A DNA stretch of 64,000 nucleotides from Pedobacter zeae. GTDB lineage: Bacteria > Bacteroidota > Bacteroidia > Sphingobacteriales > Sphingobacteriaceae. The stretch spans positions 620,001 to 684,000 of the forward strand of contig NZ_JACIEF010000002.1 of assembly GCF_014196715.1 (NCBI RefSeq), in the 5' to 3' direction. Positions 33,981 to 37,391 of this stretch are shown here, piece by piece. The notes beneath the pieces are model-generated. The model was not told the DNA's origin. It ran no database searches and saw only the letters and a list, made by a program, of their open reading frames with translations. Made by a program: the position numbers and the translations under genes. Each line of letters begins with the position of its first letter. Position 1 is the stretch's first letter.

Positions 33981-34817
33981 ATGAATACATTAAAAATTAT
34001 CCCTGTTTTTCTATTATTAACCATAATGGCTTTCGCTCAGAAAAAAGCTGTTCCAATTAATATCATTACCTATAACATCCGATTAAATGTAGCATCAGAT
34101 GGCGTTAACGCCTGGCCAAACCGAAAAGATAACGTAAAAGCTTTGGTAAAATTCCATGATGCCGATATTCTCTGCGTACAGGAGGCTTTGCCGGAACAAT
34201 TCGATGCCTTGCTCGAAAATTCTAATTTCGATGTGGTAGGGGCAGGGCGTGATGATGGGAAAAGAAAAGGAGAGTTTTCAGCAGTTTATTTCGATAAAGA
34301 TAGATTTGAAAAGAAAGAGGGCGGTACCTTTTGGTTGTCGGAAACCCCTGATGTTCCCTCAAAGGGATGGGATGCCGCACTTAACCGGGTATGCAGCTGG
34401 GTTAAACTGTACGATAAGCTGAACAAAAAAGAGTTTATCGTTTTTAATACCCATTACGATCATGTTGGGGTAAAAGCGAGAATTGAATCTGCTAAGCTGC
34501 TAAAACAGAAAATACAGCAGATTGCCCCGGCATTACCTGTTGTATTTACAGGCGACCTGAACGTAACACCTGAAACCGAGGCAATCGCAACAATCAAATC
34601 TTTTCTTATCGATGCGAAAGATATTTCTGCAGAGCCTCCATACGGCCCCGCAGGTACTTTTAATGGTTTTGATTTTAACAGCGACCTGAAAAACAGGATC
34701 GATTATATTTTTGTAAACAAAGGGTTTAAGGTGCAGAAATTTGCTGTACTAACAGATAGTAAGGATAAAAGGTATTATTCGGATCATTTACCTGTTTTTT
34801 GCCGTTTATTCTTTTAA
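33981..34817 (+). CDS. Secreted endonuclease/exonuclease/phosphatase-family protein
   Basis: A 278-residue protein with a signal peptide ending near AFAQ (ATG at 33981 preferred over GTG at 33969). The DNase I-like/EEP fold is shown by ITYNIRLNVASDG, LCVQEALPEQFDAL (metal-binding Glu), FNTHYDHVG, VFTGDLNVTPET (Asp-Leu-Asn) and the C-terminal YSDHLPVF (Asp-His pair). Members hydrolyse phosphodiesters in nucleic acids or phosphomonoesters/phosphodiesters in inositides and sphingomyelin. A secreted member could release phosphate or lipid head groups. It is the first of five tightly packed genes, with only 3 bp to the next. Confidence 0.88.
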   Translation: MNTLKIIPVFLLLTIMAFAQKKAVPINIITYNIRLNVASDGVNAWPNRKDNVKALVKFHDADILCVQEALPEQFDALLENSNFDVVGAGRDDGKRKGEFSAVYFDKDRFEKKEGGTFWLSETPDVPSKGWDAALNRVCSWVKLYDKLNKKEFIVFNTHYDHVGVKARIESAKLLKQKIQQIAPALPVVFTGDLNVTPETEAIATIKSFLIDAKDISAEPPYGPAGTFNGFDFNSDLKNRIDYIFVNKGFKVQKFAVLTDSKDKRYYSDHLPVFCRLFF

Positions 34818-34820
34818 CAG

Positions 34821-35585
34821 ATGCTGTTAAAATCTGTATCTCCATTTCCTTTCCAATTCGAACTTTTTGGCAACCAATACCATTACCACTATATTTTCGA
34901 AACCCTGGCCTTTATAGTTGGTGTAAGGTTGTATTATTACTATAAAAAGGGAAATGCAGATCCGATATCTGACGACAACAGGCTGTGGATTATGTTGGGG
35001 GCCATGCTTGGCGCTTTGATCGGTTCGCGCATAATTGCCGTGCTCGAAACTCCTCAGGTACTTAGCCATCTTAGTTTTTCGGTTCTTTACCAGAGTAAAA
35101 CCATTGTGGGCGGTTTGCTTGGTGGTTTATTCGGGGTCGAATTAATTAAAAAGATAATTGGTGTGAATATCGCCTCCGGAGACATCTATGTTATCCCGAT
35201 TTTGGTCGCCCTCATTATCGGCCGTATCGGTTGCTTTTCGATGGGGATCGATGAGCCGACCTATGGTATTCCTACCCACCTGTTTACCGGGATGGATTTA
35301 GGTGATGGTATACGCCGGCATCCCATCATGCTTTACGAAATAGTTTACCTCATCCTTTTGATTGTTCTTTTTAACAGCATCAAACATCAAGAACTGATCA
35401 ATGGCGATCGCTTTAAACTATTGATGTTGTTGTATTTCTTATTTCGCTTCCTGATCGAATTTATTAAGCCTTACCATTCATTATTTTTAAGTTTAAGCAG
35501 CATTCATTGGTCAGCATTGTTTATTTTTATTTATTATTATCGATTCATCATCAGAATTTCAAAGAAGATAACAGCTAAACAGTAA
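34821..35585 (+). CDS. Lgt-like integral membrane protein (diverged)
   Basis: A 254-residue membrane protein with about seven hydrophobic segments in the arrangement of prolipoprotein diacylglyceryl transferase. GRIGCFSMG (134-142) corresponds to the Lgt signature GRxGNFxNG, and RRHPIMLYE (165-173) to the conserved Arg and HPxxLYE. The segment SKTIVGG (92-98) stands where Lgt has a catalytic SFHGG, so the essential His seems to be missing and the signature Asn is Cys. It is therefore probably not a standard Lgt but a relative that binds phosphatidylglycerol or another lipid. It lies 5 bp before the radical SAM gene. Confidence 0.8.
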   Translation: MLLKSVSPFPFQFELFGNQYHYHYIFETLAFIVGVRLYYYYKKGNADPISDDNRLWIMLGAMLGALIGSRIIAVLETPQVLSHLSFSVLYQSKTIVGGLLGGLFGVELIKKIIGVNIASGDIYVIPILVALIIGRIGCFSMGIDEPTYGIPTHLFTGMDLGDGIRRHPIMLYEIVYLILLIVLFNSIKHQELINGDRFKLLMLLYFLFRFLIEFIKPYHSLFLSLSSIHWSALFIFIYYYRFIIRISKKITAKQ

Positions 35586-35590
35586 ACATT

Positions 35591-36985
35591 ATGGCCAACA
35601 CAAGAGATTATATATATTACGATTATACCAAAAGTCTTTGTCCGGAATGTTTACAGCTTTGCGATGCGAAAATTGTTTTTCAGGATGCTAAAGTGTTTAT
35701 GCTGAAAAATTGCAGAACGCATGGGAATAGTAAAGTGATGATTGCCGATGATGTAGAATATTACAAACAGATCAGGAATTACAATAAGCAATCGGAAATG
35801 CCACTTAAGTTCAATACTAAGGTGCATTACGGTTGTCCTTACGATTGTGGTTTGTGTACCGATCATGAACAGCATTCATGTTTAACAGTAATAGAGGTTA
35901 CCGACCGTTGTAACCTGGCCTGCCCAACCTGTTATGCCATGTCGTCGCCAAGTTATGGCAGGCATAGAACGCTGGCAGAAATAGAGCGGATGATGGATGT
36001 GGTGGTGGCAAACGAGGGGCAGCCGGATGTGGTGCAGCTTTCGGGCGGGGAACCAACAGTACATCCCGAATTTTTTAAGATTTTAGACCTCGCCAAAACC
36101 AAACCCATAAAACATTTAATGGTAAATACGAATGGGATCAGGATTGCAAAAGACATTAAATTTGTGGAGAAACTGGCCGGTTATATGCCCGATTTTGAAA
36201 TTTATCTGCAGTTTGATAGTTTCAGTCCAGAAGTATTAACCAGGCTGAGGGGGGAAGACCTTAGCGAGGTGAGGAGAAAAGCCATCGATCATTTAAACCA
36301 ATTTAATGTATCTACTACTTTGGTTGTTACTTTACAAAATGGCTTAAATGACCATGAAATTGGCGATATTTTGGATTATGCACTTAAACAGAAATGCGTG
36401 CGTGGAGTAACTTTTCAGCCTACCCAGGTTGCAGGGAGAAATGATAACTATAACGATCAGCAGGGCAGGATCACCCTGACCGAAGTGCGCAGAAAAATTT
36501 ATGAGCAATACCCAACCTTTACTCCGCAGGATTTAATTCCTGTTCCCTGTAATCCTGATGCGCTTTGCATGGCTTATGCCTTAAAAATAGGAGATGAGGT
36601 AATCCCGATGACACATTTGATCAACCCGGAAGATTTGCTGAATAATTCAAAAAATACCATTGTTTTTGAACATGATGAAAAACTGAAAGAACACATGCTC
36701 AATTTGTTTAGTACCGGTGTTTCAGTAGATTGCGCTGAAGATACCTTTGGCGAACTGATGTGCTGTTTGCCGAGGGTAAAATCAGACAGTTTAAGCTATG
36801 ATAATTTATTTCGGATCATTATTATGAATTTTATGGATCCGCTTGATTTTGACGTGCGAGCAGTTAAGAAATCATGTGTGCACATTGTGAGTGATAAATA
36901 TAAAATGGTACCTTTCGAAACCATGAATATTTTTTACCGCGACAATAAAATAGATCTGATCAGGGGAAAATTAAATATGAACTGA
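35591..36985 (+). CDS. Radical SAM protein, tetraether-lipid-synthase-like
   Basis: A 464-residue radical SAM enzyme. A rubredoxin-like N-terminus has C17-x2-C20, C24 and C41-R-T-H-G; a second group YGCPYDCGLCTDHEQHSC gives C82, C86, C89 and C97; the radical SAM motif is C107-x3-C111-x2-C114, with the GGEPTVHPEF strand after it. The C-terminal part has PVPCNPDALC, ELMCC and the segment FMDPLDFDVRAVKKSC. This order resembles, as I recall it, the archaeal Tes (MJ0619) group that joins lipid tails by C-C bonds, and its bacterial relatives. The substrate here is unknown. The Lgt-like gene just upstream supports a membrane-lipid substrate. Family placement is fairly sure, reaction is inference. 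Confidence 0.8.
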   Translation: MANTRDYIYYDYTKSLCPECLQLCDAKIVFQDAKVFMLKNCRTHGNSKVMIADDVEYYKQIRNYNKQSEMPLKFNTKVHYGCPYDCGLCTDHEQHSCLTVIEVTDRCNLACPTCYAMSSPSYGRHRTLAEIERMMDVVVANEGQPDVVQLSGGEPTVHPEFFKILDLAKTKPIKHLMVNTNGIRIAKDIKFVEKLAGYMPDFEIYLQFDSFSPEVLTRLRGEDLSEVRRKAIDHLNQFNVSTTLVVTLQNGLNDHEIGDILDYALKQKCVRGVTFQPTQVAGRNDNYNDQQGRITLTEVRRKIYEQYPTFTPQDLIPVPCNPDALCMAYALKIGDEVIPMTHLINPEDLLNNSKNTIVFEHDEKLKEHMLNLFSTGVSVDCAEDTFGELMCCLPRVKSDSLSYDNLFRIIIMNFMDPLDFDVRAVKKSCVHIVSDKYKMVPFETMNIFYRDNKIDLIRGKLNMN

Positions 36986-36986
36986 T

Positions 36987-37181
36987 ATGGGTGGTTTATT
37001 CGTATTATTGATTGTTTATTGCCTTACCGCTGTCGTGCTTTTTGTGGTAGGGATTATTCAGATTATCATTAAGTCATCAAGGAACGAACCGGTAAAACCA
37101 GGGTTAAAGTTGCTTATTATTTCGGTAATTATGGTGGTAATCGGTTTTGGGGCCTGTGCTGTATTGCTGGCCAACAGTTAA
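36987..37181 (+). CDS. Small two-helix membrane protein, copy 1
   Basis: A 64-residue protein with two hydrophobic helices (about 4-26 and 42-62) joined by a basic loop with NEPVKPGLK. It begins one base after the radical SAM stop codon, so it is translated with it. The gene downstream encodes a close paralogue. No family is recognised. It could anchor, regulate or insulate the lipid-acting enzymes. Confidence 0.7.
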   Translation: MGGLFVLLIVYCLTAVVLFVVGIIQIIIKSSRNEPVKPGLKLLIISVIMVVIGFGACAVLLANS

Positions 37182-37196
37182 TTTCAATATAAATCC

Positions 37197-37391
37197 ATGG
37201 GAATTTTCATTATATATTGGGTAATTGTCGTATTGTTGTTTGTAATTGGCATTATCCAGATCATCGTAAAGGCAATTAAAGATCAACCGGTTAAACCAGG
37301 ACTTAAATTGGTTATTGCCTCTGTTATTATGCTGGTAATAGGAGCCGGTGCATGTGCCGTAATTCTTTCTAATTTGAATATTGGCCATTAG
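37197..37391 (+). CDS. Small two-helix membrane protein, copy 2
   Basis: A 64-residue paralogue of the preceding gene. The shared core includes PVKPGLKL at the same place, VIGI(I)QII before it, and GACAV(L/I)L in the second helix. The gap is 15 bp. It looks like a local tandem duplication, with both copies kept in frame. Confidence 0.7.
   Translation: MGIFIIYWVIVVLLFVIGIIQIIVKAIKDQPVKPGLKLVIASVIMLVIGAGACAVILSNLNIGH

Follow-up and report, generated by a model that had tools for sequence, protein, structure and literature searches.

What could join an Lgt-like membrane protein, a radical S-adenosylmethionine (SAM) enzyme and two very small membrane proteins in a mesophilic member of the Bacteroidota? 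The question was raised by a locus of Pedobacter zeae in a stretch of 64,000 nucleotides (contig NZ_JACIEF010000002.1, positions 620,001 to 684,000), hereafter called the window. An earlier note, made from the letters of the window, had described a tight run of five genes ending in a pair of 64-residue paralogues, and the open reading frames (ORFs) were found as described. Our analysis showed that the Lgt-like protein, the radical SAM enzyme, which is related to Tes and TrsS, and the small cysteine proteins form a three-part module that is inherited together. The module appears to be new, whereas its enzymes are additions to superfamilies that are already known. The reading that we tentatively prefer, with slightly less than even confidence, is that the Lgt-like enzyme lipidates the small proteins at their cysteine and that the Tes-like enzyme tailors the lipid or the adjoining peptide by radical chemistry. 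The successive genes, all on the plus strand, are separated by gaps of 3, 5, 1 and 15 bp, and the features of the locus are listed below.

33981..34817, plus strand: EEP-family secreted phosphodiesterase (PF03372, E 3e-20), an adjacent passenger outside the module
34821..35585, plus strand: Lgt-like integral membrane protein, 254 amino acids (PF01790, E 6e-20), core component
35591..36985, plus strand: Tes/TrsS-related radical SAM enzyme, 464 amino acids (PF04055, E 3e-27; PF23545, E 2e-18), core component
36987..37181, plus strand: S1, two-helix membrane protein of 64 amino acids with Cys57, core component and putative substrate
37140..37157, plus strand: motif IGFGAC of S1, residues 52-57, candidate modification site
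37197..37391, plus strand: S2, two-helix membrane protein of 64 amino acids with Cys53 and a tail ending in GH, core component and putative substrate
37338..37355, plus strand: motif IGAGAC of S2, residues 48-53, candidate modification site

The nearest named relatives of the radical SAM enzyme were those of Pedobacter loci (97-98% identity) and of a Sphingobacteriaceae metagenome-assembled genome (MAG; 99%). The median ratios of nonsynonymous to synonymous substitution rates were 0.066 for S1, 0.084 for S2, 0.071 for the Lgt-like gene and 0.015 for the radical SAM gene. S1 and S2 are thus genes under purifying selection and not chance ORFs.

Co-inheritance of the three components

Among 396 Bacteroidota genomes, both enzymes were encoded in 31, the Lgt-like protein only in 1, the radical SAM enzyme only in 2 and neither in 362. 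Presence was defined by E up to 1e-40 for the radical SAM enzyme (33 genomes) and E up to 1e-15 for the Lgt-like protein (32 genomes). The co-occurrence gave a Fisher p of 1.4e-42, which overstates the independent events because the genomes are related. The two genomes with the radical SAM enzyme only held distant homologues, one of which was the Tes control described below. In the 19 other Pedobacter genomes, the pair was present together in 11 and both genes were missing in 8. The two enzyme genes adjoined in 37/37 Pedobacter loci and in 30/32 loci of the Flavobacterium type. These two kinds of loci had no further gene widely in common. The trio was also found in a TrsS-like clade of Bacteroidota (38% identity of the radical SAM enzyme) and on plasmids of Actinomycetota (29% identity), the sampling beyond Bacteroidota consisting of plasmid records only. 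A conserved neighborhood, which the earlier note had named as a check on its proposal, therefore exists.

In the tree of the radical SAM enzymes, the Pedobacter sequences were nested in Flavobacterium, apart from Mucilaginibacter of their own family, and in the tree of the Lgt-like proteins they likewise fell among Flavobacterium, a pattern to be expected of a cassette that is transferred as a whole. In genome G096 (locus L154), the second of the two genomes counted as having the radical SAM enzyme only, the gene is flanked by a weak match to the Lgt-like protein and by a small protein that ends in GGMC, so that this locus may be a further divergent trio. A contig labelled as a Limnohabitans MAG (L079) carried a typical Flavobacterium cassette and is probably misbinned.

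The small proteins share a C-terminal ending

Neither S1 nor S2 matched a Pfam or NCBIfam family above the cut-off. The two proteins were 63% identical over 57 amino acids, and their C-termini read KLLIISVIMVVIGFGAC-AVLLANS in S1 and KLVIASVIMLVIGAGAC-AVILSNLNIGH in S2. The corresponding endings were LLLLALLFGAC-MVGIGGASLFNLFK in the TrsS-like clade and GLMIGWALTSIITVGVC-TGLNPAMYTGA in Mycobacterium branderi. Across 35 aligned small proteins the mean column identity was 29%, yet the pattern I-G-x-x-x-C was invariant. Nearly all of the small proteins ended in the same way, with a loop rich in lysine and arginine, one helix, a glycine shortly before the cysteine and a short neutral tail, and the cysteine followed the last lysine or arginine by a median of 16 residues. 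Their lengths ranged from 46 to 368 amino acids (46 to 144 in most Bacteroidota, 94-151 on mycobacterial plasmids, and 368 in Nonomuraea, where the N-terminus was proline-rich). Each locus held 1-4 divergent paralogues, which lay after, between or before the enzyme genes. Judged from these sequences, with unrelated N-termini, widely differing lengths and paralogues that share the motif only, the ending would seem to behave like a substrate tag.

A generic test for this ending was devised after the proteins had been viewed and is therefore descriptive, with one-enzyme loci and flanking ORFs as controls. The ending was present in 104 of the 107 trio loci (79/80, 19/20, 3/3, 3/3 and 0/1 by group). 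It was absent from the one-enzyme loci, both those that had only the radical SAM gene (0/5) and those in which an Lgt-like or radical SAM gene had a missing or unlinked partner (0/4). Two of the trio loci that failed, L024 and L154, carried the cysteine and each missed a numeric threshold; a third failing locus also exists. Only 2 of the 248 ORFs of the window had the ending, namely S1 and S2, and the strict clade-specific motif was found in 0 of 3060 flanking ORFs. Members of the small-protein family elsewhere in the genome were considered and dropped after a profile search of 10 genomes, in which significant matches occurred at the cassette only. In 35 of 52 loci with two copies, a C-terminal histidine, mostly as Met-His or Gly-His, was present on the second small protein only (S2-type, L033-L112).

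Loops rich in lysine and arginine face the cytoplasm according to the positive-inside rule, and the cysteine is therefore predicted to lie near the periplasmic face of the membrane. Cysteine-containing C-terminal tags such as MYXO-CTERM are similar in that a single C-terminal helix and a cysteine serve as a processing tag. The order of the MYXO-CTERM tag is a cysteine, the helix and then an arginine cluster, whereas that of the small proteins is reversed, with the basic residues first, followed by the helix, the cysteine and the short tail.

The Lgt-like protein retains the head-group residues of Lgt

The relationship to Lgt proposed in the earlier note was supported at the levels of family, profile and fold. 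The protein reached the Pfam LGT family (PF01790, 72 bits against a cut-off of 24.9), and the curated Lgt equivalog cut-offs were not reached (36.1 against 334 bits and 23.3 against 118.9 bits). The profile of the Lgt-like family matched E. coli Lgt (5azb) with E 8e-15. The AlphaFold2 (AF2) models in this study were of single chains; that of the Lgt-like protein had a predicted local distance difference test score (pLDDT) of 92, and 5azb was its only significant fold match in the PDB. In E. coli Lgt, residues R143, E202, Y235, R239 and R246 line the site of the phosphatidylglycerol head group (PMC8689077). The equivalents of the first four were invariant in 32 Lgt-like sequences, and that of R246 was always lysine or arginine. 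The protein thus resembles Lgt in its fold, in its head-group residues and in an RHPxxLYE segment. It differs in that a separate main Lgt is encoded in the same genome and in that a hydrophobic residue occupies the position of His103. The partner proteins also differ from the substrates of Lgt, since their cysteine lies at the C-terminal end and not after an N-terminal signal peptide.

Lgt-like sequences were also found outside trio loci. A lone gene in genome G017 (L149, 7656-8498; 37% identity) had no cysteine mini-protein nearby. On a plasmid of Mycolicibacterium chubuense NBB4 (L179, 4001-4558), an Lgt-like stretch without an annotated gene or a radical SAM gene lay near genes for an apolipoprotein N-acyltransferase and an M23 peptidase.

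The radical SAM enzyme is a relative of Tes and TrsS in a separate clade

The radical SAM protein carries a zinc ribbon of the MJ0619 type (PF23545) at its N-terminus, in addition to the radical SAM domain (PF04055). Its best curated family was TrsS (NF045646, 314.4 bits; cut-off 490), followed by Tes (NF045702, 272.5 bits; cut-off 450), so neither cut-off was reached, and no curated family covered this clade above its cut-off. The positive control, a protein of a Bacteroidota-phylum MAG (G066; L153, 6864-8318), scored 493.8 bits and passed the curated Tes cut-off; its gene had no Lgt-like or small-protein neighbors. A profile of 25 relatives of the radical SAM protein matched MJ0619 (7tol) with E 6e-121, and nearly the whole length was aligned. 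The AF2 model, with a predicted template modeling score of 0.83, had 7tom as its best fold match, with a template modeling (TM) score of 0.82. MJ0619 was the sole full-length structural match, and the SPASM maturases (SkfB, SuiB and others) covered only the core barrel with TM below 0.4. A SPASM C-terminal domain or a recognition element for ribosomally synthesized and post-translationally modified peptides (RiPPs) was not found in the Pfam scan of the protein.

The cluster ligands of Tes, at the N-terminal site, the [4Fe-4S]N cluster and the radical SAM cluster, were taken from the literature (PMC9433317), and the C-terminal CC...PFC set of cysteines was defined from conservation. The N-terminal Cys3His site (C17, C20, C41 and H44), the auxiliary cluster C82, C86 and C89, and the radical SAM cluster C107, C111 and C114 were conserved in the family. 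All of the cysteines that the earlier note had assigned to three clusters are present; C24, however, was not conserved, and by alignment with Tes the fourth N-terminal ligand is His44. The note had also overlooked C320, C391, C392 and C429, which were invariant in the Bacteroidota clade. Of the C-terminal Tes cysteines only C429 aligned, and C320, C391 and C392 occurred instead. The stretch of residues 353-401, which includes C391 and C392, had pLDDT below 50 in the model. The FMD...FD..R..K..C ending that the note had linked to Tes is indeed shared and aligns with MJ0619.

The kinship with Tes (MJ0619; NF045702; 7tol and 7tom) therefore stands, with homology over the full length, the same overall fold and the N-terminal and CX3CX2C sites retained, whereas an assignment as Tes fails because of the scores below the cut-off and the different cysteines of the C-terminal cluster. 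Further differences are the isoleucine of the Pedobacter-type enzyme at Tyr459 of Tes, the Lgt-like and small-protein partners, and the mesophilic bacterial hosts. The differences at Tyr459 and Met439 were dropped as grounds against Tes-like chemistry because variants at both positions remain active (PMC9433317). As for TrsS (NF045646), the Pedobacter-type enzyme has C97, C320 and C429 in common with the TrsS-like Bacteroidota clade, but it forms a separate clade, and the isoprenylcysteine-methyltransferase-like and DUF4395-like genes found at TrsS-like loci are missing from its own. In three TrsS-like loci (L146, 3435-6941; L147, 6065-9617; L148, 6501-10088), these two genes separated the radical SAM gene from the Lgt-like gene, and a small protein with an FG[SA]C ending followed. 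Selenocysteine was considered for a TGA in frame with the TrsS-like gene of G121 and dropped: this TGA is a stop, and the match extended two codons beyond it. On haloarchaeal plasmids and plasmids of Mycolicibacterium vanbaalenii (L172-L175), a class I methyltransferase gene came after a related radical SAM gene, without Lgt or small cysteine proteins and in several cases with thioredoxin-like neighbors.

Possible mechanism and alternative explanations

In the proposed mechanism, the last helix of the small protein would enter the membrane from the basic cytoplasmic loop, so that the cysteine would reach the periplasmic face. This geometry would be that of a lipoprotein signal peptide meeting Lgt, and it is for this reason that the small proteins were judged to be putative lipidated substrates. 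The Lgt-like enzyme, with its head-group residues kept, would transfer diacylglyceryl or a related lipid to the cysteine. The Tes-like enzyme might then activate a C-H bond, either in the tail of the attached lipid or in the neighboring glycine or cysteine of the helix. An extension of this mechanism, which we regard as distinctly unlikely, is that the cysteine-linked diacylglyceryl tail is cross-linked by radical chemistry, either to a lipid of the opposite leaflet or to the protein itself, and the protein is thus tethered by a membrane-spanning lipid. If true, this tether would be a previously undescribed protein lipidation with a C-terminal helix as its tag.

Several observations weigh against lipidation of the small proteins. 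The motif differs from a standard lipobox: in S1 and S2 the cysteine follows FGA or AGA at the C-terminal end, and the pattern [LVI][ASTVI][GAS]C with an N-terminal signal peptide was not found in them. The position of His103, the proposed catalytic residue of E. coli Lgt, was V, A, L, M or T in the 32 Lgt-like sequences, and thus hydrophobic in nearly all of them. His103 is not universal in Lgt, since the main Lgt of the host genome (G000:C2:1466229-1467311, L113) has tyrosine there and cysteine at the position of Asn146; the loss of these two residues was therefore withdrawn as proof of a different mechanism. The radical SAM enzyme is expected to be cytoplasmic, whereas the predicted place of the cysteine is close to the periplasmic face. 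Most loci hold no more than two small proteins, in many cases one of each type, which would also fit a pair of structural subunits. In addition, G017 has an Lgt-like gene without a radical SAM gene, and the pair lies on different contigs in two genomes.

The main rival, which matches the idea of the earlier note, is a system acting on free lipids. The role of the Lgt-like protein would be to deliver phosphatidylglycerol or remodel it, that of the radical SAM enzyme to couple free tails or alter them, and that of the small proteins to serve as scaffolds in the membrane or to present lipids. This explanation appears unlikely, if with an appreciable chance: the closest solved relative, MJ0619, couples lipid tails, and in its crystal structure the pocket was occupied by bacterial phospholipids (PMC9433317). 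The small proteins that occur as pairs, with their two types of tail, could also form a heterodimeric scaffold. However, free-lipid chemistry passes over the strongest signal, a set of small membrane proteins dedicated to the Lgt-like and radical SAM pair, and leaves unexplained both the near-invariant single cysteine in otherwise unrelated membrane proteins of variable length and the finding that the cysteine ending tracks the Lgt-like gene and not radical SAM homologues without it. We also know of no membrane-spanning lipids from these mesophiles, which weighs against it. A putative protein-linked modification at the cysteine fits better than a putative modification of free lipids alone.

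The divergent, multi-copy small genes beside a radical SAM gene resemble those of precursor peptides, and the glycines beside the cysteine are conserved, so a direct modification of the Gly/Cys motif by the radical SAM enzyme (thioether formation, methylation or epimerization) was considered, with the Lgt-like protein as a helix holder and not a transferase. Such peptide maturation is rather unlikely given an enzyme without SPASM or RiPP-recognition architecture whose only full-length structural match is Tes, and a mere holder would have no need of invariant residues for binding phosphatidylglycerol. It is improbable that the small proteins serve the radical SAM enzyme as a subunit for redox or assembly, with the cysteine as a metal ligand or in a disulfide. 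They are nearly always encoded beside the enzyme and some tails end in a conserved Met-His or Gly-His, which are possible metal ligands, but radical SAM enzymes receive their electrons from the cytoplasmic side while the cysteine is predicted to lie at the periplasmic face, the tail varies across clades and the copy number varies from 1 to 4. A chance neighborhood of unrelated genes, a highly improbable explanation overall, holds for the EEP gene; for the three core parts it is refuted by a co-occurrence p of about 1e-42 and by recurrence in two phyla with different gene orders.

Significance of the module

No description of a combination of Lgt, radical SAM and small membrane proteins was found in the open-access literature that was searched, which is in itself no proof of novelty. 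By the features tested, the module lies outside Tes, TrsS, Lgt and the lipoprotein pathway, although related enzymes are used. The matched set of enzymes and mini-proteins suggests an undescribed way of putting lipids on membrane proteins or tailoring them there. The module offers a directly testable case of what may be a new lipid modification on membrane proteins, and it spans at least two phyla, including Pedobacter and Flavobacterium species that are common in the laboratory. Bacterial Tes homologues are being counted as a sign that their hosts may produce branched tetraethers that span the membrane, on which a temperature proxy is based; the filter is E below 1e-50, over 400 amino acids and over 20% identity (PMC8941075, PMC11868695). 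Judged by its match to MJ0619, the radical SAM family of the module would pass this filter although it belongs to a different module, with its own Lgt-like enzyme and dedicated cysteine proteins, and its recognition would clean up this count.

The neighboring phosphodiesterase gene

The EEP gene, which the earlier note had included in the unit, did not prove to be a member of it. The gene was present at 34/37 Pedobacter loci versus 0/32 Flavobacterium-type loci, and at more than 70% identity in 5 of the 8 cassette-free Pedobacter genomes. It was therefore dropped as a component of the module and is a resident of the Pedobacter site at which the cassette lies.

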